Shown: positions 5,531 to 53,511 of the stretch, piece by piece
Position numbering within the stretch: the first letter of the stretch is position 1
Layout of the letters: the number at the start of each line of letters is the position of its first letter
Assembly: GCA_030446715.1 (NCBI GenBank)
Contig: JAUJMU010000009.1
Span: 62,001-126,000, forward strand
Length of the DNA: 64,000 nt
Direction of reading: 5' to 3'
DNA from: Cytophagales bacterium
Lineage (GTDB): Bacteria > Bacteroidota > Bacteroidia > Cytophagales > 172606-1
Translations under genes and position numbers: made by a program
Notes under the pieces: generated by a model
The model's input: the letters and a program-made list of their open reading frames with translations, nothing else
What the model was told of the DNA's origin: nothing
The model's database searches: none

Positions 5531-5575
5531 GCGGGTGGCAAGTAGTAAGGTATGAAAATTCAGTTTTTGAATCCT

Positions 5576-7405: not shown

Positions 7406-10400
7406 TTATCGCCTCACCTGGAGTTTTTTGGTAGTAAGCCTGCCCCCGGAGGTTACCGTGACTAGGTAAAAACCTTCCGGCAACCCACTTACATTCACTT
7501 CCAGGCTATTTGAGCCGGCCTGCAACCAATAGTCTCTTTCCTGTACCTGCCGGGAAAAAAGATCGGTAAGCCTAATCCGGGCTGGTCCGGCCTCTATTGC
7601 CTGGATGCGCAGGGTAACCTGATCGGTAGTTGGATTGGGAAACAGGCTCAGTTGGACCGGTTCGGTTTCTGCCAACATCGGTGCTTCTGCTGAGGTAGCG
7701 GTTGTACGGGCCTGCGTTTGCGCAACCGGCTCTTTGGTTGGATCGGTAACCAGCAGGTAATCTACCTGCGGGGTGGCGCCTCCTACCGTAGTGAGCCTGA
7801 TGGTATTCGCCCCTTTCAGCAGGGAAGCACCCAGCGCTACGGTTTGCCAGCTCCCGGAAGAAAGCGTTGCCGGAAACGCCAGCCGACTGTTCACCACAGT
7901 TCCGTTAACCGAAAGACACAGATAGCCTTCTTCACCGGTATTGTCATCGTCGGCGCGGGTATACCGGAAGGTCAGGCGGTAACTGCCCGCGAAAATACCT
8001 TTCACATTCCACTCAAGGGAATTGCCTCTGGGAGCGGCTAATTGCACGTACCCACGGCCGGAGTAGCCCTTGAAGGCGGTTCTCACCTGGGCTCCGGATA
8101 AAGTTGCGTTTTCGGCTTCGTAGGTAGTGCTGGCCGGGGGCAGGGTCGTGACGCTCAGGGCGCTGGCGTCCGACCCGTTCCCGGCGGCGTCAAGGGCTTT
8201 TACCGTAAAGGTGTACCCGGTACCAGCCGTCAGTCCGGTAACGGACAGTTGCGTCCCCGTAAGCGCGGCCGCATTCACCTTTACGCCTTCCTGGTACACC
8301 TCATACCCGGTTACCGCTACGTTATCGGTGGAGGCCTGCCAGGACAGCGTCAGGCCGTACGGCGTCACGGAAGCAGCCGCTAGCTGGGCCGGGGCACTGG
8401 GCGGCACGTTGTCGGGGGTGGTAACCGTTACGGCATTGCCGGCCGGGGACGCATTACCGGATTCATCCCGGGCTTTTACCGAAAAGGTATACGTTTGGGC
8501 GGAGGTTAAACCAGCTACGGTAAACGTGGTACCCGTCGTAGAACCCACCCGCGTGGTGCCGTTGTAAAGATCATAGCCGGATACTTCCGTATTATCCGTA
8601 GAGGCAGTCCAGCTTAACTCTACTTGAGTAGGGGCAACGGAAGTAGCCGCCAGGTTACCCGGAATGGTGGGCGCCTGCGTATCGGGTTTGCCCAGCCGGA
8701 GGTGGTCCATAAACAGAACGGCGGCACTGTCGGCATTGCTGACGGACATGAGCCGTATTTGTTTGATGCGCTTGGGATTGATCGAACCAAAGCCCCCCGC
8801 GAAGTCGAGCGTAAAGGTTGCGTACGCATTGGTTCCCTTCACGTAGAGGGTAAACTTTGAATTATCCACCGATTCGCCCTGGTCATCCACCAGCTTCACC
8901 CGCAGGTTCACCGGAAAATTGCTTTTCAGGTCAACCGAAAATACCGCGTTGGCCGTCAGGTTAACGGGTCTTTGCAGCGTGGTCACGTACACGTTCTTGT
9001 ACTGGGCTACATCGTTCAGCGTCAGGCGTAATTCTTCGTTCTGCTTCAGACTGACGGGACTGTTGGCCGAAGTGGTTTGCACGGTATCGTTCACCACATT
9101 GCCGGAGAAATCATTCGCCAGTGAAGTAGGTGTGAGCACGGCCGCTCCGGGGCGGGCCACGAAAGGCAAGGTAGTAACCGCCAGGGGGGCGCTGCCGACG
9201 GATTCGTTCCCGACGAGGTCCCGGGCTCTGACGGTAAAGCTATACGTAGTATCAGACTCCAGCCACGTAGCGGTATAACTGGGAGTGGTCAGCAACGAAG
9301 GGTTCAGTTTGGTGCTGCCGGCGTACACGTCGTACCCGTCAACGCCTTTGTTGTCGGTGGCAGCCGTCCAGCGCAACGCAGCCGAGTGCGGGGTGATGTC
9401 CGACGCAACCAGGCCGGTTGGGGCCGTAGGAGGCTCCACGTCATCGAGCTTGATGCCCAGCTTAAGGTCATCCATGAAAATGACGGCATCGAGGGGGGCG
9501 CCGTTGAAGTTGGAAATTTTGATCCCCTTGATGCTCCGGGCGTTTACCGCTCCGAATCCGGCCTGGGCAAAATCAAGTCTTTGGGTACGGTACACATTGT
9601 CGCCGGCCAGGTACAGCGTGTTCTGTCCGTTATCTACCTCCTTGCCGGTGTCGTCAAACAATTTCACCCGCAAATTGACTTTTGCACTGCTTTTGATTTT
9701 TACCGAGAACGTGGCATTGGCGGCCAGCACGATGGACCTTTTGAACGTGGTCACGTATACGTGCTCGTACTGAGGCAGATCAGCCGCGGCCAGCCGCAGT
9801 TCTGCATTTTGCCGGATGTTTACCCGGCTGGCCGCCGTGGTGGTTTGCACGGTATCGTTCACCACATTTCCGGAGAAGGTATTCTCCAGCGAGGAAAGCG
9901 TAAGAATGGCCGACCCGGGCCGGGCTACGAAAGGGGCAGTCGTAACGCTCAGGGGAGCACTGGCGGGAGATTCCAGTCCCGTATTCCCTCTTGCTTTCAC
10001 CGTAAAGGTGTAATTCGTACCCCCATCCAGCCAGGAAGCCGTGTAAGCGGTAGTGGTCACAATGCCGGTGTTCATTTTGGTACTTCCGTTGTACACATCG
10101 TACCCGATAAGGCCTGCATTGTTGGTCGGAGCCGTCCAGGACAGATTTACACTGTTATCAGTAATGGTACCGGCCTTCAGAGCAGTTGGTGCCGAGGGCA
10201 CCTGGCTGTCTTCAATTGCCGTGGTAATCAGCGTCACGGAATAGGGAGCCAGGGCCAGGTCGCCGGGCGTTACAGTAATCGTCTCGGGCAGCATGCCACT
10301 CTCATTGATCTGCATGCTCCGCAGGGTTTCCCCTCCGGCAGGAATCAGCAGGTTTCCGCCACCCGGCACGGTGATGGTCTGGCTGGTTTTGTTCATCAGG

Positions 10401-11542
10401 AGCAATGACCGCTTTCCGTTGGCAAGTAGTACCGGCAACACTTCCACGGTAGAGTCCGGCACGCTGCTCCCGGCTAAACGACCGTGCAGGTACCGGTTGC
10501 CCCAATTGTAGAGGGAACCCGTTGCCCGCTGATTGTTATTGCCATCAATCAACCCGTAGGCATTGCCTTTCACGTGCCATACGTTGGTCCCGGTAACGTG
10601 ATTAACCGCAGCCCGGCGCACGACACAAGCCTGGAAAACGGCACCCACGTGATTGGTATGACGCACTTCAAACGGGTCCCACGTCCACTGCACGTTGAAT
10701 TCAGTCAGGAAAGTCTCTTTCTGCAAGCCCCTTTTCTGCAGGGAACTCATCATGTATTTGGCGTTTTTCTCAATTTGGTTGAGTAAGTTGAAAAAGATTC
10801 TATCATTGGGAGTAGAAGGATTGCCCGAGGCGTAGTTATGCCAGGTGACAAAATCCAGTTTGGGGGCGGAAATGTCCATGAAACTCTCCACCCAGAGCGG
10901 ATTAGGCCAGGTAAGCGCCGGACCTCCCACTTTGGTATTTGGATCAATGGCCTTGATGCCGGCCGCGATCTTATTTACCAGGTTCCACAGGTCGGGTAGA
11001 CGGCCGGCTTTTTCGTATAAACCCTCCCTTTCGTTGGTGATTTCCCAATAGGCCACTTCGCGCTTTACCGAATCACGCATGATAATGACCAGGTCGGTGC
11101 ATAGTTTGGTAAACTCTTCCTCATTAGCGGTTGGCAGGGGGCCACTGGTAGGAGCCAGCCAGGAGGGCCACTTGGGAATGTTCAGCAAAATCTTGGCGTC
11201 GCCGTAGCCGGTAGCATTCCCAAACCCGGCCTTGATCTTGGCTACATCCCAGGTTCTGGTGGTAGGATTGGTCCATAGGTCCGTTAAGCTTGCGTGGTGA
11301 ATCCGGATAAGTTCAGGGTTTAACTGGGTTACATACTGATTAAAGCCACTGTTGGCCGCAATGGTAGGGTTGCGGATCTGTTCATCGTTAACCCCCCATA
11401 GTTTGGGGCTGATCTCGCCTGCGGTAGTATTCCAGTCCACACTGACCCGGGCTGTTTGGGCAAAAACATGACCTTGTATCCCCACCAGGAAGGCACAAGT
11501 CAGCAGGAAGAGGAGTTGGTTAGGGGAGTAGTGTGTTTTCAT
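7406..11542 (-). CDS. Large T9SS-secreted multidomain glycosidase (clan GH-A, four FN3, CBM)
   Basis: Extracellular glycan-degrading enzyme of 1,378 residues. I start at the ATG at 11542 because MKTHYSPNQLLFLLTCAFLV begins a clear signal peptide; an ATG at 11620 falls inside the leader palindrome. The catalytic TIM barrel (about 30-360) has the probable acid/base Glu171 in AYWEITNEREG and nucleophile Glu281 in TFLTEFNVQW. Then come FN3 (447-536), a beta-sandwich (537-698), FN3 (701-792), a second copy of the sandwich (793-950), two more FN3 (953-1134), a CBM6/35-like domain (1141-1268, YEAENATLSG) and a T9SS sorting domain (1295-1378, LSLFPNPTTDQ). The FN3-sandwich unit is a tandem duplication still visible in DNA. 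It is expressed from the promoter module at 11615-11709. Confidence 0.9.
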   Translation of the reverse strand: MKTHYSPNQLLFLLTCAFLVGIQGHVFAQTARVSVDWNTTAGEISPKLWGVNDEQIRNPTIAANSGFNQYVTQLNPELIRIHHASLTDLWTNPTTRTWDVAKIKAGFGNATGYGDAKILLNIPKWPSWLAPTSGPLPTANEEEFTKLCTDLVIIMRDSVKREVAYWEITNEREGLYEKAGRLPDLWNLVNKIAAGIKAIDPNTKVGGPALTWPNPLWVESFMDISAPKLDFVTWHNYASGNPSTPNDRIFFNLLNQIEKNAKYMMSSLQKRGLQKETFLTEFNVQWTWDPFEVRHTNHVGAVFQACVVRRAAVNHVTGTNVWHVKGNAYGLIDGNNNQRATGSLYNWGNRYLHGRLAGSSVPDSTVEVLPVLLANGKRSLLLMNKTSQTITVPGGGNLLIPAGGETLRSMQINESGMLPETITVTPGDLALAPYSVTLITTAIEDSQVPSAPTALKAGTITDNSVNLSWTAPTNNAGLIGYDVYNGSTKMNTGIVTTTAYTASWLDGGTNYTFTVKARGNTGLESPASAPLSVTTAPFVARPGSAILTLSSLENTFSGNVVNDTVQTTTAASRVNIRQNAELRLAAADLPQYEHVYVTTFKRSIVLAANATFSVKIKSSAKVNLRVKLFDDTGKEVDNGQNTLYLAGDNVYRTQRLDFAQAGFGAVNARSIKGIKISNFNGAPLDAVIFMDDLKLGIKLDDVEPPTAPTGLVASDITPHSAALRWTAATDNKGVDGYDVYAGSTKLNPSLLTTPSYTATWLESDTTYSFTVRARDLVGNESVGSAPLAVTTLPFVARPGAAVLTPTSLANDFSGNVVNDTVQTTSANSPVSLKQNEELRLTLNDVAQYKNVYVTTLQRPVNLTANAVFSVDLKSNFPVNLRVKLVDDQGESVDNSKFTLYVKGTNAYATFTLDFAGGFGSINPKRIKQIRLMSVSNADSAAVLFMDHLRLGKPDTQAPTIPGNLAATSVAPTQVELSWTASTDNTEVSGYDLYNGTTRVGSTTGTTFTVAGLTSAQTYTFSVKARDESGNASPAGNAVTVTTPDNVPPSAPAQLAAASVTPYGLTLSWQASTDNVAVTGYEVYQEGVKVNAAALTGTQLSVTGLTAGTGYTFTVKALDAAGNGSDASALSVTTLPPASTTYEAENATLSGAQVRTAFKGYSGRGYVQLAAPRGNSLEWNVKGIFAGSYRLTFRYTRADDDNTGEEGYLCLSVNGTVVNSRLAFPATLSSGSWQTVALGASLLKGANTIRLTTVGGATPQVDYLLVTDPTKEPVAQTQARTTATSAEAPMLAETEPVQLSLFPNPTTDQVTLRIQAIEAGPARIRLTDLFSRQVQERDYWLQAGSNSLEVNVSGLPEGFYLVTVTSGGRLTTKKLQVRR

Positions 11543-11614
11543 ATCCGTTTTTTGTAAGTGAAGTGGGTAAACTGGATTATTTCTTTGGCTACTGCGGAAA
11601 TGGTTTAGTAATGA

Positions 11615-11709
11615 ATTCAATATAATTGAATAATAACTTTACCATACAATTATATGATGGTTATTTGGATATATCAAGCTTTATATTGAATTATTTTTTT
11701 ATATTGTAG
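11615..11709 (-). promoter_or_regulatory. Promoter module of the large glycosidase gene, shared with 2403-2497
   Basis: On the minus strand TTG (11675-11677) is followed after exactly 20 nt by TATAATTG (11647-11654). Next comes the palindrome TTCAATATAATTGAA (11616-11630), with the same order and spacing as at 2403-2497. Predicted start is near 11642, leaving about 100 nt of leader before the ATG at 11542. Sequence between the two boxes is less conserved than the boxes and palindrome. Confidence 0.7.
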
Positions 11710-12226
11710 AGGTGTGATTATATGAATTTGGACTTTCAGAAGCCTGATGGCAGAGACACTGCATGTGCTGCTCGTTTAATTGGAGTAATCCGTTGAGCAG
11801 CCGGCAGCCGGGGAAGGGAAGGGTGGGTTTCCCCCAAAATAATGGAGGGTTAGAAAAGGTCAGGCAGTCATAGAGTACCGCCGTATCCATGACTATACAG
11901 GCAAAGATTCACTAATAAGCCAGGCTGTTGCCAGGTTGAAAGCAGAGAAGCATCAAGAACATAAAGTATATACACGTTTATTTAATGAGAATAAAATCAC
12001 TCAACCTTTTCAAACCTTCTGCCCAAGAAAAGTTATATGAGCAGATTAATAAATACTTATGAGTCAAATCTTCTATATTTAAAGTTGACCGGATAGTAAC
12101 CATAAAGCAAGAGACGTAATTACCCGGCTAGGCAAACTGTCCGATCCGAACTTGATAACATTTAAAAGACCTTTTTAAAAAATCAGTAGATTAAAAGGGT
12201 AAAAACGGCTCATTTAATTAACCCTT
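11710..12226. other. AT-rich intergenic region without a recognised gene
   Basis: This 517-bp stretch separates the minus-strand glycosidase locus from the plus-strand genes. It is clearly richer in A and T than its flanks. I found no convincing ORF, RNA gene or strong hairpin. It may carry the old promoter of the decayed gene starting at 12227, but I see no clean TTG/TAnnTTTG pair. Confidence 0.5.
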
Positions 12227-40640: not shown

Positions 40641-41204
40641 GTGGACCAGCCCCATTCTCAAAATAGCGATGCAGAAGTCTGGAGTGACTTTAAAAGAGGG
40701 AGTCAGGAGGCATTCTCATACCTGTACCGTACGCATTACCGGAAGCTGTACAATTATGGGTACAGCATCATTGCCGATAAGGAATTATTGAAAGACGCCC
40801 TGCAGGAATTGTTTCTGGAGTTGTGGCGGGACCGGGAAAAATTGGGACAAGCGCAATCCATTCAGGTATACCTGCTCGTATCGTTTCGCCGGAAAGTGTT
40901 TGGCAAAATCCGCTCCATCCGTAGAAAGCGGCTGGAGAGGGAAGACCCGCCCGGCGCGGAAGATTCTTACGAGACCTCTGTTATTGCCCGGCAGGAAGAG
41001 GAGGCGCAGGGGAAACGGCTCAGCCAGGAGCTTAACTGCCTGCCTAAGCGGCAAAAAGAAGCCATCTATTTACGATTCTACCAGGAACTGACCTACCAGC
41101 AAATCACCGAGATCATGAACCTGCAGTACCAGACAGTGCGGGATTTGATCTGTAAAGGCTTGAAAACCCTGCGCCAAAATTTAAAAACCCTGCTGCTGTT
41201 CTGA
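40641..41204 (+). CDS. ECF RNA polymerase sigma factor (FecI-like)
   Basis: Extracytoplasmic-function sigma factor of 187 residues. Region 2 is at about 20-90 (EAFSYLYRTHYRKLYNYGYS, LKDALQELFLELWRDREKL) and region 4 at about 130-180 (LPKRQKEAIYLRFYQELTYQ, then QQITEIMNLQYQTVRDLICK). It is followed by a FecR anti-sigma gene and an STN-bearing SusC gene, the usual cell-surface signalling cassette: ligand at the receptor signals through FecR to free the sigma factor, which transcribes the SusC/SusD pair. A 12-bp inverted repeat stands directly before it. Confidence 0.93.
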   Translation: MDQPHSQNSDAEVWSDFKRGSQEAFSYLYRTHYRKLYNYGYSIIADKELLKDALQELFLELWRDREKLGQAQSIQVYLLVSFRRKVFGKIRSIRRKRLEREDPPGAEDSYETSVIARQEEEAQGKRLSQELNCLPKRQKEAIYLRFYQELTYQQITEIMNLQYQTVRDLICKGLKTLRQNLKTLLLF

Positions 41205-41576
41205 ATACGGCCCAGGTAACCGGATCAGACTCCCGGAAAGAAAATAACTATTTCGGTCCAGACCCGTAACCGAATGTAAATGAACAGGTTATCTGGGCTG
41301 GGGCAAATGACGTACTGTCTTAACCCGACCGGCAGCACTACCCGTCTGCCTGAAGCCGGGAAACTGGCAGGTGAAAATCGGGATGCATAAAAAATGCCCG
41401 GAGGGTGCGGTAAAGCATCGCGTACCGGAGGCAGATGCCAGCCCGGACTTGCCAGGTAAAATTTTTTTCAAAATCAACACTACAAAACCTCCGCTGCCTT
41501 CTCTCTACCAACGCAATCCAATATAGGTACTAAACCGGCTGCGGATTGACTTATTCAAAGGATAAATCGGATTTCA
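41205..41576. other. Intergenic region between sigma and anti-sigma genes
   Basis: This 372-bp gap is longer than usual for a sigma/FecR pair. I see no convincing ORF or strong hairpin. Just before the FecR gene it turns AT-rich (a run around AAATTTTTTTC at 41459-41469, then CAATCCAATATAGG), a likely place for a sigma-dependent promoter, but no consensus can be assigned. Confidence 0.4.
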
Positions 41577-42617
41577 GTGAAATTGCCAAGACCTACGGTA
41601 GAAAGACTAGCCATGAACCGCCGCTTCCAACGCTGGGTAAAGCGTCCTACTCCAAAGCGGGATGCCTTCTGGGTGGAGTGGATGGCAGGGCAACCGGAGC
41701 GGAAGCAACTGGTAGAAGAGGCCCGGCGGCTGGTGCGGGCGGTACACTTTGCCGATGATCTGACGGAGGCTGAAATTGCCGAAGAATGGACTGCCCTGCA
41801 ACATCTGGCCGGGACAACGGAACAACCGGAAGCAGCTACCGCTCTCCGCCGTTCCCTTCGCCTGGGCGTATCGGCGGCGTGGCGTGCAGCGGCCGTTTTT
41901 ACCGGCTTACTCGTATCGGTTGCGCTGTTGTACGCCTTCCTGAAAGAGACGCCGTCCACGGAGCAGACGACCGGAAGCGGTGAAATCAAAACGGTGCACC
42001 TGCCCGATGGCTCCCTGGCGGTGCTCAATGCCAACTCCCGGCTCGTCTATCCGGCCGCCTGGGAAGGGGACAAGCCCCGGGAAGTATGGCTGGAGGGAGA
42101 AGCTTACTTTTCGGTTACCCACCGGGCAAACAATCAGCGGTTTATCGTCCGCTCAGCCGATGCCTTCAACATTGAAGTACTGGGGACCACTTTCACGGTG
42201 CTCAACCGGCAGGACCGGAACCGGGTGGTCCTGAACTCCGGAAAAGTCCGGCTCCAGACCGGGCCGGCCGGAGCGCGGGAACCTATCGTGATGAAACCCG
42301 GCGAATTGGTAGAGGTAGCCGGACGGGCCGGCAAGGCCCAAAGAAGGTACGTAAATCCGGCAACCTATCTTGCCTTCAAGGACCACAAACTGGTTTTTGA
42401 CAATACGACGCTGGCGGAAGTGGGCCGCCAGGTCCGGGATACGTACGGGTGGCAGGTGACGTTCACGGAAGCCCCGCTGCTGACAAAAGAATTTACGGGC
42501 ACCTTTCCGCTCGAAAACCCGGATTTGCTCCTGCAGGCCCTCCGCCGGACGTATCACCTGGACATGCGCCGGGAGGGGAATCAATTGCGGCTGCATTCGA
42601 AGACAACTACGCCCTGA
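41577..42617 (+). CDS. FecR-domain anti-sigma factor
   Basis: Inner-membrane anti-sigma factor linking the receptor at 42676 to the sigma factor at 40641. The N-terminal cytoplasmic part (FQRWVKRPTPKRDAFWVEWM) precedes a transmembrane helix near 100-122 (AAAVFTGLLVSVALLYAFL). A periplasmic FecR domain follows (IKTVHLPDGSLAVLNANSRL, EVWLEGEAYFSV, IEVLGTTFTVL), then the C-terminal secretin/TonB-like domain (TTLAEVGRQVRDTYGWQV). The start is uncertain: GTG 41577 or ATG 41613. An upstream TTG frame (YSKDKSDFS) resembles the usual N-terminus but is out of frame; removing about 19 nt near 41578-41597 would join DFS to VERLAMNRR, so a small insertion may have damaged the start. Confidence 0.88.
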   Translation: MKLPRPTVERLAMNRRFQRWVKRPTPKRDAFWVEWMAGQPERKQLVEEARRLVRAVHFADDLTEAEIAEEWTALQHLAGTTEQPEAATALRRSLRLGVSAAWRAAAVFTGLLVSVALLYAFLKETPSTEQTTGSGEIKTVHLPDGSLAVLNANSRLVYPAAWEGDKPREVWLEGEAYFSVTHRANNQRFIVRSADAFNIEVLGTTFTVLNRQDRNRVVLNSGKVRLQTGPAGAREPIVMKPGELVEVAGRAGKAQRRYVNPATYLAFKDHKLVFDNTTLAEVGRQVRDTYGWQVTFTEAPLLTKEFTGTFPLENPDLLLQALRRTYHLDMRREGNQLRLHSKTTTP

Positions 42618-42675: not shown

Positions 42676-45600
42676 ATGAAAAAGTTTCTACTCCCGGGGA
42701 AACTGCTGGCAACGCTTTGGCTCATCCTCAGTAGTTTTTCCGCTGCTTCCGCCCAAACCCTGGCCTCTTCCGGCGAAGCGGGGCCCACTGCTCCCCCCAC
42801 CGGCGCGCAGCAATCCCGAAGCCTGAAGGAAATTTTATCCGATTTGGAAAGCCGGTACCAGATTTCCTTCTCGTACGACCGGCTCACCGTCGAAAACAAG
42901 GCCGTGAAGCCTCCCAGGCAGAAATTCAGCTCCGTGGAAGAAGAGTTGACCCAGTTGCTGAAGCCGCTGGACCTGGGGTTTGAAAAGCTGGGCGAAAACC
43001 TGTACCTCATTCTGCCCGCTCCCGGCAAACCCGCTCCCCGGTCTTCCGTGCCGGAGCCGAAGTCACCCGCGCCGGCGGCACTGGCCCCCGTCAATATTTC
43101 CGGCACCGTCAGAGACGAGGCCGGAAGCGGATTACCCGGCGTAACGGTGCTGGTCAAAGGAACTACCGTGGGGTCTTCCACCAATCCCGAAGGAAAATAC
43201 TCCATTGCCGTACCCGAACCGAATGCAGCGGGTACTCTGGTGTTCTCCTCCATCGGCTACACTACGGAAGAGGTACCCATCAGCGGCCGCACCACCATTG
43301 ACGTTACCCTGCTGTCCGACGTCAAATCCCTGCAGGAAGTGGTGGTGATCGGCTACGGTACCCAGAAGAAACGGGACCTGACCGGGGCAATCAGTTCGAT
43401 TTCCCCCGAAAAAATCAACCAACTGCCCATCAGCCGGGTGGAGCAGGCGTTGCAGGGCCGGATTTCCGGGGTAAACGTAACGTCCAATTCGGGTGCTCCG
43501 GGAGGTTCAGTGGCCGTGCGCATCCGGGGGATCGGCACCATCAACAACAATCAGCCGCTCTACGTCATTGACGGTATTCCGGTATTCGGGGACGGTGCCC
43601 TGAACTCCATCAATGCCAACGACATTGCCTCCATTGAAGTGCTCAAAGACGCTTCGGCCACGGCTATTTACGGCGCCCGGGCCGCCAACGGGGTGGTGAT
43701 TGTCACAACCAAACGCGGCAAAGAAGGCAGAGTAAGCCTGACGTACGACGGCTACACGGGCCTGCAGCAACTGGCCCGGCAATATGATATGCTGAATGCC
43801 ACCCAATGGGCCTTGTTGAGCAATGAGATGCGTTCAGCCCAGCGTACCGACCCGCTGACGCCGGAATGGGGTGACCCGGCCAACATTCCCGGCGGCGTGG
43901 ATACGGATTGGCAAAAGGAAATTTTCCGCTCCGCCTTTATGCAAAACCACGCCCTTTCCCTGTCCGGCGGGGGCGAAAATTCCCAGTACCTCGTTTCGGG
44001 TAGCTACTTCGATCAGGACGGAGCCGTAAAAGGTTCCAATTTCAAACGCTATTCCATACGGGCCAACACGGATGCCAATATCTTCGGCCGGGTAAAACTG
44101 GGAACCAGCCTGCTGTTCTCCCGCACGATGGAAAATTCGACGGGCAATGGCGGCCGGATCGAAACGGCGCTGCGGCAGCTGCCCACCGTTCCGGTGAAAT
44201 TTGCGGACGGCACCTGGGGCGGACCGCAGGGTGCCAAGGAGTACTACAATGACCAGAGCAACCCGGTAGCCGAAATTGAATTATTCAGCAACCGGCTGGA
44301 CCGGAACCGCTTTTTAGGCAACCTGTTCGGGGAAGTGGAACTGCTGAAAGGTCTCGCCTTCCGGTCCAGTTATTCGGCGGATTTAAGTATGCTGGAGGAG
44401 AAAGGATTCATTCCTACCTACCAGTTCGGCGTGCTGTTCCGCAATACGGCCGGGCTCACGCAGGTAAACGCCCGGAACATCACCCAGATTCTGGAAAACT
44501 CCCTTTCCTATAACCGCACCTTTTCCGGGCAGCACAACCTGTCGGCCGTGGTGGTGTATTCGGCGCAGGTATCTGAATCCAACTCCGAATCCGCTTCGGC
44601 CAACGGCCTGATCAGCAACGCCCTGCCTTACCTGAACGTGAACACCGGCCTGGTGACCATCAACAACGGCGATACCTACGCCAATGAGTGGTCGTTGCTT
44701 TCCTACACGGGCCGGCTCAACTACACATTTGCCGATAAGTACCTGTTTTCGGCTACCGTGCGCCGGGACGGCTCTTCCCGGTTCAGCCGGAGCAACCGGT
44801 ACGCCACTTTTCCGGCTTTCTCGGTGGGCTGGCGGCTTTCGGATGAAGGTTTCATGAAGGGAATCCGGTTTATCAACGAACTCAAACTGCGCGGCAGCTG
44901 GGGCCGGTCGGGTAACCAGGAAATTGGTTTGTATCCCTACTTTGCCAACCTGGCCATTGACCGCCGTTACGTATTTGGTCCGGGTGGCGCCGGACAAACC
45001 ATCGTACCCGGAGTAGCCCCGGTTTCGCTGGCCAATCCGGATCTGAAGTGGGAAACGGCTACGCAAACCAACGTAGGCCTTGATGCCGGCCTGCTGAACA
45101 ATCAACTATCCCTTTCGGCCAATTATTTCATCAAGAAGACCACGGACATGCTGGTGCGGGTTCCCATTCCGCAAACCTCGGGCATTGCCAGCGCGCCGTT
45201 TGTAAACGGGGGCAGCCTCGAAAACCGCGGCGTGGAACTGGAACTGAATTTCCGGAAAACCGCGGGGGCGCTTACCTATGAACTGGGCGGCAACCTTTCT
45301 ACGGTCACTAACAAAGTGCTCAGTCTGGGTGGCGGCCGGCCGATCTTCGGCGGCGAGTTTCGTCAGCCACCAACGGCCGGGGCGGGCAAAATGTAACCAT
45401 TACCCGCGAAGGCGACCCGGTAGGCTCTCTTTCTACGGGTACATCGCCGAAGGCATTTTTCAGAATCGGGCCGACATTGAGGCCCACGCCACGCAAGGCA
45501 CCGCTACCCGGCCGGGCGACGTGAAGTTCCGGGACGTAAACGGTGATAATGTAATCAATGCCAATGACCGGGTCCTGATCGGCAACCCCATTCCGGACCT

Positions 45601-46093
45601 GACCTACGGGATGAACGGCAGCCTGACTTACAAGAGCCTTGATTTTAATCTGTTCTTTCAGGGCGTGCAGGGCAACGAAATTTACAACGGAACCCGCACC
45701 CGCATTGCCGGCATGTTTGCTGTCGAGAACCAGACTGCCGAAGTACTGGCCCGGTGGCGGGGCGAAGGCACCAGTAATACCGTACCAAGGGCGGTACAAC
45801 TGGACCCCGCCGAGAACGGCCGGAACTCCACCCGCTGGATTGAAGACGGGTCGTACCTGCGCCTGAAGAACATCACCTTAGGGTATACCCTTCCCCAGGC
45901 ACTGACCCGGAAAATACAAGCCCAGAAGGCCCGTCTGTACCTGTCGGGCACCAACCTGCTTACGTTCACCGACTACACGGGCCTGGACCCCGAAATCGGG
46001 GAACGGAACCAGACTACCCTGTCGTACGGGGTTGATTACAACGTGTACCCTGTGGCCTGCACCTTCACCCTCGGTTTGAACGTGAGTTTCTGA
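42676..46093 (+). pseudogene. SusC-like receptor with STN signalling domain, frameshifted near its end
   Basis: TonB-dependent transducer that would import glycan and signal to FecR. The first 900 residues are intact: signal peptide, STN domain (RSLKEILSDLESRYQISFSY, about 40-115), carboxypeptidase-like domain (ISGTVRDEAGSGLPGVTVLV), plug (VVVIGYGTQKKRDLTGAISS, EVLKDASATAIYGARAANGV) and barrel. Near 45359 the frame is lost and a stop appears at about 45396. The expected sequence continues in another frame (VSSATNGRGGQNVTITREGD), then after a CT duplication near 45428 in a third frame (SFYGYIAEGIFQNRADIEAH to TLGLNVSF, stop at 46093). Two small indels therefore break an otherwise well-preserved receptor: recent loss or sequence error. 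Confidence 0.88.
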
Positions 46094-46130: not shown

Positions 46131-47599
46131 ATGAAAAAGCCCAACACACCCAAGCCCATCCAACTGATTGCCCTGCTCTTCTGCCTGGTTCCTTCGGGGC
46201 TGCGGAGAGATTTTCGGACCGGGCTCCCCTGGACACGCCAACGGAGGCTACTTTCTACAAAACTCCGGGAAGACGCCGTGTACGCGGTCAATGCTGCGTA
46301 TGACGTACCGCAGCAGCAGCCTTTGTACCGGCACGCCGCCTACCGCTGGGGCGCCAAAACCGACGAAATGTTCCGGGCCAGCGACTGGTACAACTATACC
46401 TATTCGCCCACTGATCCCAATACGGGCTCGAACCCGGCCTGGGGGAGCGGCCTACCAGGGCGTACTGGCTACCAACGTACTTTTCCAGCAGGTGCCGCGC
46501 ATGTCCATTGACGAGAACGTGAAAAACCGGATTCTGGGCGAAGCGGCTTTCCTGCGGGGCTTTTACTACTACTTTCTGGTGCGGTGGTACGGCGACGTTC
46601 CCCTGATTCTGGAAGTGCCTACCACCAAAACCAATTTCCTGGTGGCGCGGGACCCCGCCGGCAGCGTGTACGAACAGGTGATTGCCGACTTTACGCTGGC
46701 TATTGAAAACCTGCCGCTCAAATCCGCGTACGGTTCGGCGGATATCGGAAGGGCAACCAAAGGGGCAGCTCAGACGATGCTGGCCGACGTGTACCTGTAC
46801 CTGGCCGCTGACGGGATGAAAACGGAGTACTACGAAAGTAAGAGACTCCGTGCCAGGCCGTAATCAGTTCGGGGCAGTACCAGCTGGAAGCCAACTACGC
46901 GGATATTTTCAGGCTGGCCAACGAAAACGGCCGGGAATCCATTTTTGAGGTGCAGTTTCAGAAGGGCGGCCCTGGCGGAGATGGGGCCAACGCCAATACC
47001 TGGATTACCCGGTTCAACAGTACCTCGGTGCAGGACGCGTTCTTCACCAGCTGGAACGCGGCCGACAGACGCCGCGCCGTATCGGTAATTGCCCCAGCGA
47101 GACGCAGGGCGACTGGACGAATACGACGCCTAATTATCACCAGCGCAAGCCGATTCTGGGCCGGGAGAATGCCGCGGGTGAGGCCGGCGGCAACGTGGAT
47201 TCGCCGCTGAACTACATGGTGCAAAGCGGTACGCCAATGTGCTGCTGATGTACGCCGAGGCTTTGAACGAACTAAACAGCACGCCTCCCGCGCCGGCCAT
47301 TGGCTACGTTAACCAGCTCCGCAGCCGGGCCGGTTTGCCGGCTTTGCCTTTAACCCTGACCAAAGCGGAATTCCGGCAGGCCATCCGGACGGAACGCAGG
47401 TACGAACTGGCCTTTGAAGGACACCGCTGGTTTGACCTGGTCCGTTACGAACGGATGGCCTGGGGGCGACGGATGTACCGTAATCCGGGCTTCGCCGCAC
47501 TACAATCCCAACTTCCGCTGGCCCAAACACGCCATACAACCCATTCCGCAGACTGAGATTGATCTTAATCCCACACTGACGCAGAATCCGGAGTATTAG
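46131..47599 (+). pseudogene. SusD-like lipoprotein gene broken by many small indels
   Basis: All parts of a SusD protein are present in order but spread over the three frames: LDTPTEATFYKTP, then AVYAVNAAYD, WGAKTDEMFRASDWYNYTYS, YQGVLATNVLFQQVPRMSID, FLRGFYYYFLVRWYGDVPLI, ATKGAAQTMLADVYLYLAAD, VISSGQYQLEANYADIFRLA, ANVLLMYAEALNELN, ERRYELAFEGHRWFDLVRYE and PIPQTEIDLNPTLTQNPEY. By eye at least seven indels are needed (near 46200, 46266, 46443, 46840, 47085, 47220, 47465), several in G or C runs. Amino-acid similarity stays high between them. It is the partner of the receptor at 42676. Confidence 0.88.
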
Positions 47600-47683
47600 G
47601 CAAATTACTTGATCACCCGCTGAATATTTTAACGAACCATTTGTTCACGCATAAGATGAAAAAAGCTATTTCTTCCAATACTC

Positions 47684-48124
47684 ATGCTGTTGTTTGTCCT
47701 TACGGCCTGCTCCGGGGACGACGCCCCGGCCCGGCCCCCGGCTACTCCCGAGTTTCTGCTTGCTGCTTCTGATTACAAAAAATGGGAGATGATAGACCCG
47801 GCCGTAACGATAGAGATGAACAAACCCCTGCCGGTAACGGGACCAGCCTGCTCCACCGGGGAAGTGAAAAACGGCATGGGCTACTTTTACCACATCTATA
47901 CCAACGGCAACATTGAATTTCAGGACGGGTGCGGCAGAACCACTTCCGACAAAACGTTACTGAAAGGAACCTGGGCCTTTAATGAAGGCAAAACGGCGAT
48001 AACGGTTTCGCTTGACGGCTTTCCGCAACAGACCTGGACCATCACCGAACTCACCGTGTCCCGGCTGGTGGTTACGGCCAATGGAACTACCCTCACCTTC
48101 GCCCCAACGCCTTTCCGCAGCTAA
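47684..48124 (+). CDS. Small lipoprotein of unknown function, start probably frameshifted
   Basis: A 146-residue product starting MLLFVLTAC would have an unusually short lipoprotein signal. Extending upstream in this frame gives KKLFLPILMLLFVLTAC, a perfect signal. The ATG at 47656 is out of frame by one base because the following A-run has six As (47659-47664) where five would join it. The mature part (TYKGTW-like lipocalin features: CSTGEVKNGMGYFYHIYTNG, GTWAFNEGKTAITVSL, TVSRLVVTANGTTLTFAP) looks like a small beta-barrel lipocalin-type domain, which is inferred. It follows the SusD remnant. Confidence 0.6.
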   Translation: MLLFVLTACSGDDAPARPPATPEFLLAASDYKKWEMIDPAVTIEMNKPLPVTGPACSTGEVKNGMGYFYHIYTNGNIEFQDGCGRTTSDKTLLKGTWAFNEGKTAITVSLDGFPQQTWTITELTVSRLVVTANGTTLTFAPTPFRS

Positions 48125-48234: not shown

Positions 48235-50163
48235 TTGAAACGACGTAAATTTTTAGGTGCCGGTACCCTGGCGGCCGGAGCCGGTCTGGTGCTGTCGCCG
48301 GCCGAAGTCCGGGCTGAAAGCGCCAAAACCAGTAAGGCAGCCGCCAAAAAAACACTCTGGCTTTTTCTGTCCGATATTACCCATCCGGACATTCACCTGG
48401 TGATTCCTTCCCTGGCCTGGATTGCCGGAGAAGCAGGCGTTGAATTTGAGTGTTACCTGGAAGCCGAACGCAACGGCAGACTCTTTGCCCGGACCGGGAG
48501 TACCGTAATCGGCGGGTTTCAGCACCAGCAATTCAACTACCTCAATGCGGTATTCGATGTCCGGTACATCATTCTGGGGGAGGCGCCTTTGTTTAAGTCT
48601 TCCATTGCTTTGTTTGGCCACTCGGTGCTGGTGGAATCCGACGATACCGTAGCCATCTACCGGGCTGCCCTCAAACAGGCCAATATCCGGAAGGTATCGG
48701 AAGCCGTTTTCGGCTTTGCCGGAACCAAAAAAGTAAAGGATAAAACGCTGGAACTGGGGCCGTATCTCTATCCGGAAATCTACTTCCGCAAGGCCCTGGC
48801 TTTCCCGGCTTCGGCAGTTAAAACGGCGGCTGCCTTGCTTAAAGAAGTGGGAGCCGGACAAGTAGGTACCCTGTTTCTGGAAGGAGACGAGAAAAAGAAC
48901 GTTACGGGCCAGTTTGCCGGAGCCAGGGAGATTGACACCCTGAAAGGCGACGAAAGTTACGATGCCATCAGTCTCCGCATTGCTGAACGCTGGAAGAAAA
49001 GCGCCAAAGGCATTGTATTCGGCGACCCGGCCGCTATTCTTTCCCAGTTGCCCAAGCTGTGCCGCGAAGCCCGGATTCCGCTGTACGGCGAAAAGAACAA
49101 GCTGGCTCCCGCCCAAGTGGTCGTGACGGCCTACACCGAGCAGAAGTCTTCCGTAGCCGATGATGTCATCCGGTTGGCGGGTGAAATCGGCAATAAGGTA
49201 ATTGTAGGCCGGCAGACCGGGGACGGCGATTTGTTTCACTGGTCGAAAGGTGGCGTTTGCATTCAGATCATGGACCCCAACCGGCCTCCGTTCCCCATTG
49301 TGGAAACTTTGCCGCACACCTGGACCAGGACCGGCAAAACCCTCTTTGATGAAGAACCAGACGATGCCACGCTGGAAAAATACGCCGGAGAAGGCAAAGT
49401 ATTGGGTACCCTGCTGTGGCACTCCGGAGAAATGGCCCACAACGAAGCCATGATCAATCTCTTCGAAGTGGTGCAGTTTTCGGGGATTAAAATGGGCATG
49501 GGTGTACACGCAGCCCGCTACGAAACGGCTCCGCAACTGTGGGAGTTGATCAACATTCCCCGGAGCAAAGGCGGGGTGAAAGGTTACATAGAACCCGTAC
49601 TCCACTCGGGCGGCATGGGCGTACTGGCCGAAATCAACTGCCCGCCCGACGAACTGAAAAAGCATTGCACCGAAGCCCTGGGCCGCATCCGGAAGCTGGC
49701 CGGAGCAGAGGCAACGCCCCGTGGCTACTACGCCTTTATGGATTCCGATTATAAAACGCTTTCGGAGGTTAAGCCCAAAACCTACCAGGCCATCAGTGCC
49801 AACGGACTGGAATACGTCGTCTCGTCCGTCACCCCGGGCCGCAACCGGATCGTTCACAAGGAGAACAATTGTGTGGTCATCAACCAGTCGGCCCGGAGCA
49901 TTTGCGGCGCCTCGCCCTTTGTGCGGGTCACCACCGTCGAGGATCTGAAAGAAAGCAGTCCGGTGCGGCCCGGCTGGATGATCGGTACGCTGGATGCGCC
50001 GGTGATTTCTTTCAATGACTACATCTGGCGGCACGGGCCCCGGTTTATGGAACTGGTGGATTACATGACCAAAAACAACAACGTGATCAATGTACTGCCG
50101 CACACCATTGCGCGGTATGCCCGGATTCTGGAGCAAAAGGGCTTTTTGCCCAAGGTTGGCTGA
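48235..50163 (+). CDS. Unrecognised Tat-type secreted protein
   Basis: A 642-residue protein I do not recognise. It begins with TTG at 48235 (a stop lies 15 nt upstream and no ATG is available) and has a twin-arginine-like leader, KRRKFLGAGTLAAGAGLVLS, ending near VRAES. The first half alternates hydrophobic strands and helices (TLWLFLSDITHPDIHLVIPS, QVGTLFLEGDEKKNVTG) like an alpha/beta domain. The second half has HSGEMAHNEAMINLFEVVQF, MGMGVHAARYETAPQLWELI, GYYAFMDSDYKTLSEVKPKT and WRHGPRFMELVDYM, suggesting a TIM- or NodB-like barrel, but no catalytic motif I can name. It lies 46 bp before a Tat-type Gfo/Idh oxidoreductase, so the two probably act together in the periplasm. Confidence 0.8.
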   Translation: MKRRKFLGAGTLAAGAGLVLSPAEVRAESAKTSKAAAKKTLWLFLSDITHPDIHLVIPSLAWIAGEAGVEFECYLEAERNGRLFARTGSTVIGGFQHQQFNYLNAVFDVRYIILGEAPLFKSSIALFGHSVLVESDDTVAIYRAALKQANIRKVSEAVFGFAGTKKVKDKTLELGPYLYPEIYFRKALAFPASAVKTAAALLKEVGAGQVGTLFLEGDEKKNVTGQFAGAREIDTLKGDESYDAISLRIAERWKKSAKGIVFGDPAAILSQLPKLCREARIPLYGEKNKLAPAQVVVTAYTEQKSSVADDVIRLAGEIGNKVIVGRQTGDGDLFHWSKGGVCIQIMDPNRPPFPIVETLPHTWTRTGKTLFDEEPDDATLEKYAGEGKVLGTLLWHSGEMAHNEAMINLFEVVQFSGIKMGMGVHAARYETAPQLWELINIPRSKGGVKGYIEPVLHSGGMGVLAEINCPPDELKKHCTEALGRIRKLAGAEATPRGYYAFMDSDYKTLSEVKPKTYQAISANGLEYVVSSVTPGRNRIVHKENNCVVINQSARSICGASPFVRVTTVEDLKESSPVRPGWMIGTLDAPVISFNDYIWRHGPRFMELVDYMTKNNNVINVLPHTIARYARILEQKGFLPKVG

Positions 50164-50209
50164 TGGCAGGAGTAAAAGAGTTTGTCCGTGAAACCGGAGG
50201 AATGATACT

Positions 50210-51451
50210 ATGAACACTGACTTTTTTTCCCGGCGGAGGTTTATCCAGGCAGGTAGCCTTGCTTCGGCGGGCCTGGCGTTGGGCTTCCCGGACTGGGCAA
50301 AAACCGCCGCTGCACCTGGTGATACGATTGGAGTAGGCATCATCGGTACCGGTTCGCGGGGAACGTATCTGACCAAATTAAGCCAGGGTGTACCCCAGCT
50401 GAAAGTGCTGGCCTGCTGCGACATTATTCCTGAGCAGTTATCAGAAGGCTTGAAACGGGCCGATAAAAAAGCCAGAGGCTACGCCGACTACCGGAAACTG
50501 CTGGAAAATAAAGACGTAGAGGCCGTGGTGGTAGCCACGCCGCAGTCCTTCCATACCGATATTGCCCTGGCTGCACTGGATGCCGGCAAGCACGTGTACT
50601 GCGAAAAAACCCTTACCTACAACGTAGCCGAAACGCGGAAACTGGTGCAGGCGGTGAAAAACGCCAAACCCGTTTTTCAGGTGGGTTTTCAGGAGCGGGT
50701 CAATCCCCTGCACCACAAGATCCGGGAAATCATTCAAAATGGCACGGCGGGCGAAATCACCCACGTGGCGGCGCAATACAGCTACCACACTTCCCAGCGG
50801 AAAAAGGTGGAAAACCCCAAATGGGAACGCATCCTGAACTGGCGGCTGTACCGGGAGTTCACCGGCGGCCCGCTGGATGAACTTTCGGCGCACCAGATTG
50901 ATATTGTGAGTTTTATTCTGGGCAAATCACCCGTCAAGGCAACCGGAATGGGTAGTACCAGTTTCTACCCGAAGGAACGCGAAACCTACGACAACGTGCA
51001 GGTGCTGTACGAATATCCCGGGGGCCTGAAGGGAAACTTCACCTGCCTGATGACCACCGGATACATGGGCTACAACATTCTGTTTTACGGTACCAAAGCC
51101 ACCATTGAAATCTGGAACGTAGACGGCAACCGGGGCAATCTGTACTTTGAATCTGACCCTTCCCGGCAACCGCCACCGCCGCCCGAAAACGTGGACGGCA
51201 TTTCCGGGGCTACCCGCCGCATCTGGGCCCGCGCCGAACCCGTTCCGATTCTGGTGGAAGGGCAACCCCGCTGGGATACCGAAACCTCAACCCTGTCGCT
51301 GAAACATTTTGCGGAATGCGTACTGGCGCATAAAACCCCGCTTTCGGACGTGGAAACCGGCGGCACCTCGGCCAATGTCATCCACATGGGCAATGCGGCC
51401 ATGCAAAACGGCACGCTGGAGGTGTGGGATGAAAAGTACAAGATTCAATAA
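50210..51451 (+). CDS. Tat-type Gfo/Idh/MocA-family oxidoreductase
   Basis: Probable periplasmic NAD(P)-dependent sugar or glycoside oxidoreductase. The twin-arginine leader SRRRFIQAGSLASAGLALGF means it is exported folded with its cofactor. The Rossmann motif is GVGIIGTGSRG (near residues 40-50), the lysine of the EKP-like motif is in HVYCEKTLTYNVAE, and the substrate domain includes QVGFQERVNP, WRLYREFTGGPLDELSAHQI and the C-terminal TLSLKHFAECVLAHKTPLSD. Secreted relatives include GH109-type NAD-dependent glycosidases and dehydrogenases that make 3-keto-glycosides; which applies here is unknown. It lies between the unrecognised protein and a terminator-like hairpin. Confidence 0.9.
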   Translation: MNTDFFSRRRFIQAGSLASAGLALGFPDWAKTAAAPGDTIGVGIIGTGSRGTYLTKLSQGVPQLKVLACCDIIPEQLSEGLKRADKKARGYADYRKLLENKDVEAVVVATPQSFHTDIALAALDAGKHVYCEKTLTYNVAETRKLVQAVKNAKPVFQVGFQERVNPLHHKIREIIQNGTAGEITHVAAQYSYHTSQRKKVENPKWERILNWRLYREFTGGPLDELSAHQIDIVSFILGKSPVKATGMGSTSFYPKERETYDNVQVLYEYPGGLKGNFTCLMTTGYMGYNILFYGTKATIEIWNVDGNRGNLYFESDPSRQPPPPPENVDGISGATRRIWARAEPVPILVEGQPRWDTETSTLSLKHFAECVLAHKTPLSDVETGGTSANVIHMGNAAMQNGTLEVWDEKYKIQ

Positions 51452-51519
51452 GGCAGCACGAGTCAAAAAATGGATTGCACAGGAGGTGCGCAAATATCAA
51501 GTAACTACCGGATAACCGG

Positions 51520-51559
51520 TTTTCAGTAGGGCAGGTTTTAAACCCTGCCCTACTGAAAA
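51520..51559 (+). terminator. Strong hairpin after the Gfo/Idh gene
   Basis: TTTTCAGTAGGGCAGG (51520-51535) and CCTGCCCTACTGAAAA (51544-51559) are perfect complements with an 8-nt loop. It stands between the Gfo/Idh stop and the next start (51586) and can act in both directions because each arm carries an A/T tail. It may separate expression of the FAD oxidoreductase from the two genes before it. Confidence 0.75.
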
Positions 51560-51585
51560 GAAATTGTATTAAACCTGATTGTATC

Positions 51586-53511
51586 ATGAAGTCCCTTCGT
51601 CTGATTCCCTTGCTGTTATTCTTTCTCTTCGTAACTACCAAAGCCTCTTTTGCCCAGCGCAAAGATATGGTGCTGGTCGAAGCCGAGTCCTTCAAAGACC
51701 CCGGCGGCTGGTTTGTGGATGCTCAGTTCATGGATTTTATGGGTTCTCCCTATATGCTGGCGCACGGACTGGGAGTGCCGGTGAAAGACGCCAAAACCAC
51801 CGTTACCTTTCCGGCCAAAGGCAAATACCGGGTGTACGTCCGCAATAAGGACTGGGTAGCCAACCAGGGCCCCGGCAAGTTCCAGCTTCTGATTGATGAT
51901 AAACCACTTCCCGATACCTTCGGCGTAAAAGGCGGAGGAAACTGGTTCTGGCAGGATGCCGGCATGGTAACCGTTGCCAATACCCAGGTTGAATTAACCC
52001 TGCGTGACCTGACTGGTTTTGACGGACGCTGCGATGCGGTTCTTTTCGTGAAGGATGGCAAACCTTCCTTTGCGCCGCCCAATGACCTGGCGGGCATGGA
52101 ACCGTTCCGGCGGAAGATTATGGGTTTTCCCGACCAGCCGAAGGATCAGGGAGAATACGACTTAGTAGTCGTAGGAGGCGGGTTTTCGGGCATTTGTGCG
52201 GCCGTGGCAGCCAGTCGTCTGGGACTGAAAGCCGCCCTGGTTCAGAACCGGCCCGTGCTGGGGGGTAATTCCAGCTCCGAAATCAAGGTGAACCCCATCG
52301 GGGAAATGTTTGCCCCGGAGGGTCCCTATCCCCGCAATGCCGACATCGTGCAGGAGTTATTGGCGCAGGAAGCCCAGATGGCCCATACCGACATGCGGGC
52401 CATGGACGAAAAACGGCTGAAGGTAGTGCAAGCCGAAAAGAACGTTTCGGTATTTCTCAATACCCACGCCAACCGGATTGAAACGGAAGACGGCCGGATT
52501 ACAGCCGTCATTGCCCGTAATACGATGACGGGAGAAGACCATAAATTCCGGGGCCGCTGGTTCGTGGATTGCACCGGGGACGGCACCATTGGCTATCTGG
52601 CCGGTGCCGATTTCCGGATGGGCCGCGAAGGCCGCAAGGAAACCGGCGAGTCACTGGCGCCCGAAATCGGAGACGCCGAGTCGGGTGATACCTTGCTGAT
52701 GGGAAATTCACAATACTGGTACGCCAGCCAGGGCTACGAACCCTCGGCGTTTCCTGTCTGTCCCTGGGCTTTGCAGCTGAACGGGGAATCTTTTGAAGTG
52801 CCTACCCCAAAATGGCCCCAGAAACTGAAGCCCGGCGTGATTGCGGCCGGTGGCTGGAACTGGGAAAGCGGCTTCCGTAAAAATACGATTTATGAAGCCG
52901 AATACATCCGGGACCATATCTTCCGGGCGGTTTACGGGATGTGGGATTACCTGAAGAACAGAAGCCAGGACAAGGATAAGTACGCGAATGGCAAGCTTAG
53001 CTGGGTGGCCCACGTGGTAGGCAAGCGGGAATCGCGGCGGCTCATGGGAGATGTCGTACTAAGGCAGCAGGACATTCAGGAGCAGGTCCCTTACCCGGAC
53101 GGCTGCGTCATCACGACCTGGTACTTTGATCTGCACTTTCCGCACCCGGAGAACAGTAAATTTTTTCCCGGCGAAGAATTCCGCTCCGTGGCTTACGATG
53201 ACCCGAACTGGGAAAAGTACCGGCCTGAGGGCATTCCGGGTGAATACACCAAAATCAAGCCGTACCCGATTCCATACCGCTGTTTCTATTCGCGCAACGT
53301 GCCTAACCTGTTCATGGCCGGCCGTAACATCAGTGTTACGCACGTGGCCCTGGCCTCTACCCGGGTGATGAAAACCACGGCCATGATGGGGACCGTAGTA
53401 GGCCGGGCTGCCTATATCTGCAAAAAGTACAACTGCGATCCTCGTGAAGTCTACACCAGATACCTCGACGAGTTCAGGGCCCTGCTGACCAACCCAGATG
53501 TTCAAAAGTAA
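51586..53511 (+). CDS. Secreted FAD-dependent oxidoreductase with N-terminal carbohydrate-binding-like domain
   Basis: Signal peptide (MKSLRLIPLLLFFLFVTTKA), then a jelly-roll-like domain at about 25-165 (VLVEAESFKDPGGWFVDAQF, KGKYRVYVRNKDWV, GGGNWFWQDAG) of the kind that binds sugars. An FAD_oxidored (PF12831-type) domain follows from about 185: YDLVVVGGGFSGICAAVAAS, VLGGNSSSEIKVN, RGRWFVDCTGDGTIGYLAGA, and the end FMAGRNISVTHVALASTRVM. The substrate is unknown; the fusion suggests it oxidises a polysaccharide-bound or glycosidic group in the envelope. It follows the Gfo/Idh gene by 134 bp including a hairpin. FAD is usually loaded before export, yet the leader has no twin arginine, which is odd. 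Confidence 0.88.
   Translation: MKSLRLIPLLLFFLFVTTKASFAQRKDMVLVEAESFKDPGGWFVDAQFMDFMGSPYMLAHGLGVPVKDAKTTVTFPAKGKYRVYVRNKDWVANQGPGKFQLLIDDKPLPDTFGVKGGGNWFWQDAGMVTVANTQVELTLRDLTGFDGRCDAVLFVKDGKPSFAPPNDLAGMEPFRRKIMGFPDQPKDQGEYDLVVVGGGFSGICAAVAASRLGLKAALVQNRPVLGGNSSSEIKVNPIGEMFAPEGPYPRNADIVQELLAQEAQMAHTDMRAMDEKRLKVVQAEKNVSVFLNTHANRIETEDGRITAVIARNTMTGEDHKFRGRWFVDCTGDGTIGYLAGADFRMGREGRKETGESLAPEIGDAESGDTLLMGNSQYWYASQGYEPSAFPVCPWALQLNGESFEVPTPKWPQKLKPGVIAAGGWNWESGFRKNTIYEAEYIRDHIFRAVYGMWDYLKNRSQDKDKYANGKLSWVAHVVGKRESRRLMGDVVLRQQDIQEQVPYPDGCVITTWYFDLHFPHPENSKFFPGEEFRSVAYDDPNWEKYRPEGIPGEYTKIKPYPIPYRCFYSRNVPNLFMAGRNISVTHVALASTRVMKTTAMMGTVVGRAAYICKKYNCDPREVYTRYLDEFRALLTNPDVQK

Follow-up and report, generated by a model that had tools for sequence, protein, structure and literature searches.

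A Gfo/Idh/MocA oxidoreductase with a predicted ApbE flavin-attachment motif at a glycan-uptake-type locus of a Cytophagales bacterium

The stretch of DNA analysed here (hereafter the window) comprises 64,000 nucleotides of a Cytophagales bacterium (assembly GCA_030446715.1, contig JAUJMU010000009.1, positions 62,001 to 126,000 of the forward strand) and carries three neighbouring genes on the plus strand. The first (48235..50163) starts with TTG and encodes an orphan protein of 642 amino acids (aa), the second (50210..51451) encodes a Gfo/Idh/MocA oxidoreductase of 413 aa, and the third (51586..53511) encodes a secreted oxidoreductase of 641 aa that depends on flavin adenine dinucleotide (FAD) and whose FAD part begins at residue 192. 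An initial annotation, made from the sequence alone, had described three genes at these positions, and all of them were recovered as intact open reading frames (ORFs) on the plus strand. What escaped that reading, and is the main point of the present analysis, is the heptapeptide DGISGAT at residues 329–335 of the Gfo/Idh/MocA protein (hereafter Gfo; codons 51194..51214, plus strand), which is an exact fit to the published motif of ApbE, an enzyme that transfers flavin mononucleotide (FMN) to proteins.

The assignment of the second gene to the Gfo/Idh/MocA enzymes was borne out by three domain matches above their cut-offs, namely PF01408 (76.2 bits, cut-off 24), PF22725 (74.3 bits, cut-off 27), and PF02894 (67.8 bits, cut-off 22.9). 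The EK and H-x-x-D/E motifs of Gfo/Idh enzymes, which we take to be catalytic, are both present in all 15 Gfo rows aligned. No GH109 enzyme is named among the three PDB matches of Gfo at E ≤ 1e-20, a comparison that included no GH109 sequence. The leader of Gfo, SRRRFIQAG, reads as twin-arginine by eye and scored 15.4 bits against the curated twin-arginine translocation (Tat) cut-off of 16.7, and the leader of the 642-aa protein, MKRRKFLGAG, is likewise twin-arginine by eye with a score of 13.8 bits; the twin-arginine leaders first proposed for both proteins thus stand by inspection but not by score.

Excerpts of the published work describe that ApbE attaches FMN to the final Thr/Ser of D-[GAIQ]-[IALVF]-[ST]-G-A-[ST] (PMC10722498), that seven residues are enough for ApbE (PMC12052999), and that proteins of unrelated folds have been given the motif (PMC12052999, PMC10722498), with the Asp being essential according to PMC10722498 and minor in a study cited by PMC12052999. 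Because the Gfo clade carries this heptapeptide, T335 is the predicted site of FMN attachment. The motif scan found no such site in the 642-aa and FAD proteins of the window. A looser form of the pattern was run over six-frame open frames totalling 547,950 residues, where it additionally matched an antisense frame of the upstream SusC gene in the window and one frame of an Azospirillum locus (L017), both of which are chance matches. Elsewhere in the same genome, no open frame of at least 250 residues contains [ST]GA[ST] at any of eight other Gfo loci, these being the best eight of 28 matches.

Relatives of Gfo were collected at E ≤ 1e-60 from 198 Bacteroidota genomes, giving 13 in addition to the window's own. 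The motif is exact in ten of them, reads DGVAGAT in one (locus L049), and is missing from two (L054 and L055). A tree of 38 rows was built from these 13 relatives, the window, a sister metagenome-assembled genome (MAG; Cytophagales bacterium YX2bin28), plasmid hits, the second Gfo enzymes found at those loci, and eight further Gfo enzymes of the window's own genome. In this tree, all 13 exact motif carriers and L049 form a single clade (100/99) to which the window enzyme belongs, and the motif occurs in none of the 24 rows outside it; the deep part of the tree, which contains several long branches, is unsure. Conservation is 0.82 for the motif, 0.42 for its 15-residue flanks, and 0.56 for the whole Gfo protein, so that the motif forms an island of conservation, if not the only one. 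What is new here is a Gfo/Idh clade with a conserved, putative flavin-attachment motif.

We then considered where ApbE genes lie relative to Gfo genes. ApbE is encoded in 19 of the 20 genomes searched, so its presence says little and it is the closeness to Gfo that counts. Of the 19 rows in the wider Gfo clade (95/93), 7 have an ApbE gene no more than about 4 kb away: it follows the FAD gene in the sister MAG, directly precedes Gfo in genomes G179 and G183, directly follows it in Spirosoma oryzicola, stands between two Gfo genes in Persicobacter psychrovividus, and is also found at such a distance in Bacteroides finegoldii and Persicobacter sp. JZB09. With one to four ApbE genes per genome, we estimate that fewer than one such close linkage would be expected by chance, as against the seven observed. 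No ApbE was found in the stretches fetched around the plasmid-borne Gfo hits of Granulicella, Parabacteroides, Spirosoma sp. KNUC1025, and Gemmatirosa. The expectation that ApbE accompanies every motif-bearing Gfo was rejected, since among the 13 exact carriers a distance of up to about 4 kb is seen in no more than two, the sister MAG and Spirosoma oryzicola; in another exact carrier (G080) it is about 11 kb away. By eye, no obvious signal peptide is present on the ApbE proteins from Bacteroides and from both Persicobacter. These ApbE relatives (L103:8024-8809, L102:13341-14156, and L107, about 5148-5729) lie beside motif-less Gfo enzymes, and those of L102 and L103 are also encoded together with DUF1080 proteins.

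The surroundings of the Gfo relatives point to 3-keto sugar chemistry. A 3-keto-disaccharide hydrolase of PF06439 adjoins them in nine of the 13 loci, of which four were assigned by running the PF06439 model and the other five by similarity, and the same nine loci hold a second Gfo enzyme whose best NCBIfam model is BT_2158, at a score below its cut-off. PF06439 (DUF1080) proteins have been linked to 3-ketoglycoside hydrolysis in an excerpt of PMC9007349. The window enzyme invites comparison with the BT_2158-type glycoside 3-dehydrogenases (NF058561) and their PF06439 partners, with which it shares the Gfo/Idh character, a putative Tat-type leader, and, through its relatives, operons containing PF06439 and a BT_2158-like Gfo; it differs from them in reaching only 100 bits against the NF058561 cut-off of 750 and in bearing the flavinylation motif. 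Where the PF06439 hydrolase stands in the relatives, the window has the 642-aa gene. In Spirosoma, a beta-N-acetylhexosaminidase gene precedes and overlaps the Gfo gene, a hint that some clade members act on N-acetylhexosamine glycosides.

Several observations weigh against a flavinylated Gfo working in a pathway of this kind. No relative of two PF06439 proteins was found in the window, which sets it apart from the BT_2158-type systems, and the single ApbE gene of the window genome (G000:C18:773865-774701, 241.5 bits) is on a different contig from Gfo. L049 has Ala at the fourth motif position, and of the 371 windows of seven residues in the alignment of Gfo enzymes, 27 are as conserved as the motif, so the motif may be structural. 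The strongest argument is that five ApbE-linked sister rows (L054, L055, L102, L103, and L107) lack the motif, which leaves the sister MAG and Spirosoma oryzicola as the only places where motif and linkage coincide. Both the motif-less ApbE-adjacent rows and the many equally conserved stretches would be expected if the heptapeptide were a structural or substrate-binding loop and the enzyme an ordinary exported dehydrogenase dependent on nicotinamide adenine dinucleotide (NAD) or a GH109-like NAD-dependent glycosidase. This alternative is a serious contender but, in our judgement, an unlikely one: an exact ApbE motif that stands out from variable flanks in 13 rows speaks against it, as does the excess of ApbE linkage in the wider clade.

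The FAD enzyme also bears on the flavin reading of Gfo. It matches FAD_oxidored (PF12831) with 259.3 bits against a cut-off of 27, confirming its assignment, whereas the sugar-binding-like domain once ascribed to it comes down to a sub-threshold Golvesin_C match in its N-terminal domain (13.8 versus 31.6 bits). In five of the six loci of its relatives, the FAD gene is adjacent to a gene for a protein of 359–390 aa with the same motif or, in L056, the near match DAKAGAT; in L057, no neighbouring protein bears it. These neighbours (L056:8056-9225, L058:7977-9080, L059:11052-12128, L060:7891-9006, and L061:10801-11886) look secreted and share D-x-x-[STA]-G-A-T. In the four that were run, no Pfam match was found for those of L056, L058, and L061, and no FMN-binding domain match for that of L059; they are a candidate new family of ApbE substrates. 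In both the window and the sister MAG, it is Gfo that stands next to the FAD gene and bears the motif instead, and from this gene order we propose that electrons may be exchanged between a Gfo-bound FMN and the FAD enzyme.

The same observations, however, allow ApbE to serve another protein, either a dedicated carrier of FMN or a partner that went unseen, with the Gfo motif modified by chance or never. The usual neighbour of the FAD enzyme does bear the motif, in L056 (genome G190) an ApbE gene follows the FAD gene of such a pair with this Gfo missing altogether, and ApbE is known to serve FMN carriers (PMC8238504). Set against this, Gfo is the sole motif carrier among the proteins scanned in the sister genome and in Spirosoma, and no carrier relative was seen next to the FAD gene in the window, and we regard this explanation as distinctly unlikely.

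The 642-aa protein, which could not be named from its sequence at the outset, remains without a nameable family: it has no Pfam, NCBIfam, PHROGs, or PDB match reaching a cut-off, and a PDB profile search gave chance-like matches only. It is rare. Among 296 Bacteroidota genomes it occurs only in the window's own, which is also the only carrier among 345 genomes of its class, and within its family it is found in two of eight genomes, the own one and the sister MAG; it was not found in G297, a genome of the same genus, where the best match to the FAD protein is only 39% identical. Relatives are present in one of 337 Alphaproteobacteria genomes, in 16 of 82 Azospirillaceae genomes, and in three plasmid records, and none turned up in the phages or viral contigs searched. 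The Azospirillum proteins (e.g., WP_174757017.1) are true homologues with 27–30% identity, and the window protein shares 131 invariant positions with the 17 Azospirillum rows aligned; the Azospirillum proteins differ in having no twin-arginine leader and in belonging to a polysaccharide synthesis cluster. On the three annotated Azospirillum plasmids, the homologues lie inside an exopolysaccharide cluster that also encodes a flippase, glycosyltransferases, and an O-antigen ligase, with no Gfo or FAD partner annotated around them. At L016, L017, and L018 (about 9896-12067), the homologue is a hypothetical protein of 714–723 aa whose gene overlaps the preceding glycosyltransferase gene. The theme common to these contexts is polysaccharide rather than oxidation. 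Repeated linkage of the three families, as predicted by the initial annotation, was not observed: across 14 loci that surround relatives of Gfo or of the FAD enzyme, there was neither a relative of the 642-aa protein nor a pairing of Gfo with FAD. A recurring trio was therefore rejected, given the rarity of the 642-aa protein and the absence of the oxidoreductases from the company of its Azospirillum relatives.

The structure prediction and fold search once suggested for the 642-aa protein were carried out. The AlphaFold2 models are poor, with a mean predicted local distance difference test (pLDDT) score of 42.5 for the whole protein and 48.7 for its C-terminal part, probably because divergent relatives are lacking, and no confident fold match was obtained. 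From these models, the protein may consist of an N-terminal alpha/beta part (about residues 38–360) and a C-terminal part (about 371–642) resembling a CE4/GH57-like barrel. Foldseek returned no match for the C-terminal model at E ≤ 0.001. A second structural search placed CE4 deacetylases and GH57 enzymes in the best rows, with 3sgg (BT_2193) second among the matches at a Z of 6.3 over 205 residues; all Z values are below 8, so this likeness is a lead only. CE4 polysaccharide deacetylases carry an Asp-His-His metal site; no histidine is found among the 131 invariant positions, making a CE4-type metal site unlikely.

The match to 3sgg suggests a different comparison. According to excerpts of PMC4071793, BT2193 is the solved member of the GxGYxYP family and combines an alpha/beta half with a seven-stranded barrel, the latter missing key residues on which catalysis in related barrels depends. 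The 642-aa protein may share this two-domain plan, as well as the lack of CE4 catalytic residues and a SusCD-type context, and could on these grounds be a glycoside hydrolase or binding protein with its site in the cleft between the halves. We find this doubtful: the pLDDT and Z values given above are low, no match to PF16216 or PF14323 was seen at E up to 1 or 10, and the GxGYxYP motif was absent both as the exact pattern and in one relaxed form.

Upstream of the three genes, and also on the plus strand, lie genes (40641..42614) for an ECF (extracytoplasmic function) sigma factor (40641-41201) and a FecR anti-sigma factor (41577-42614), which are likely the regulators of the SusCD locus, followed by a SusC-type TonB receptor (42676..46093), a SusD-type gene (46131..47600), and a gene for a small protein (47684..48124) with a weak Lipocalin_4 match (17.9 bits, cut-off 22.4). 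This set of genes marks the locus as one of the glycan-uptake type. As sequenced, SusC is spread over two frames and the pieces of SusD are in three different frames; by eye, there is probably a frame break at the start of the small gene too. The splits between 42676 and 47600 reflect either assembly indel errors or a decaying locus. If the neighbourhood were decaying, the three genes might be mere remnants, for which the misframed SusC and SusD pieces speak, but indel errors explain the frames equally well, and all three genes have open frames and, compared with the sister MAG, show strong purifying selection. Their ratios of nonsynonymous to synonymous substitution (dN/dS) are 0.045 for the 642-aa gene, 0.063 for Gfo, and 0.031 for the FAD gene, calculated from the 406 of 642, 391 of 413, and 583 of 641 codons comparable in frame and biased downward by the use of stretches at least 75% identical. 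We therefore consider decay very unlikely. The 642-aa ORF is a real gene: no in-frame ATG precedes its TTG start before a stop, and the context of that start is kept in the sister MAG. There, the gene order is as in the window, with a frameshifted copy of the 642-aa gene. The sister operon continues after the FAD gene with ApbE (L019:2267-3262) and a Tat-type fragment (L019:1542-1892) that by eye resembles a sugar epimerase-type protein; neither follows the FAD gene in the window, where the next gene is UbiA on the opposite strand.

Taken together, these observations led us to a model whose chances we see as evenly poised, in which a 3-keto-type oxidation takes place in the cell envelope with electrons leaving through a covalent FMN and the FAD partner. 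SusC and SusD would take up a glycan or glycoside, and the Tat-type Gfo/Idh enzyme would oxidise a sugar hydroxyl, most likely at C3, with a tightly held NAD. ApbE would attach FMN to T335 of Gfo, and NADH would hand its electrons to this covalently bound flavin, from which they would reach the adjacent FAD oxidoreductase or the respiratory chain; the exported Gfo would then no longer depend on NAD being turned over outside the cytoplasm. As for the 642-aa protein, it may be a lineage-specific glycan-handling partner that takes the place of the 3-keto hydrolases of the relatives, and it may supply the lyase, hydrolase, or binding step that the initial annotation proposed for it. An envelope oxidative pathway had been proposed for the three genes from the start; the SusCD, ECF, and FecR context and the PF06439 genes beside Gfo relatives agree with it, while the notion of the three families as a recurring unit has fallen away. 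The broader proposal, that this exported Gfo/Idh clade consists of dual-cofactor enzymes that hold NAD in the Rossmann fold and, in the C-terminal domain, an FMN attached by ApbE, wiring the C3 oxidation of glycosides to a flavin relay and the respiratory chain, is put forward tentatively, with the balance leaning somewhat against it.

Known ApbE-flavinylated extracytosolic oxidoreductases, such as fumarate and urocanate reductases, NqrC, and RnfG (excerpts of PMC8238504 and PMC12052999), offer a close parallel, being exported redox proteins with D-x-x-[ST]-G-A-[ST] and an ApbE in the genome, while export and flavinylation of the window Gfo are predicted. In contrast to them, the window enzyme has the NAD-type fold of Gfo/Idh and no FMN-binding domain. 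The term 'gfo' is absent from the three ApbE papers searched, PMC8238504 and PMC12052999 among them, and a limited literature search found no published tie between Gfo/Idh and ApbE.

Exported Gfo/Idh enzymes pose a puzzle, as they would leave NADH in the periplasm with no obvious route for its reoxidation, and a flavin relay, if real, would answer it. The conserved motif makes this hypothesis specifically and cheaply testable, and the proteins encoded next to the FAD enzyme at these loci suggest another, unnamed family that bears the motif. If the model is correct, the substrates of ApbE would gain an NAD-type enzyme family and with it a new class of covalent flavoproteins, and the breakdown of 3-keto glycosides in Bacteroidota would be coupled to flavin-based electron transfer.

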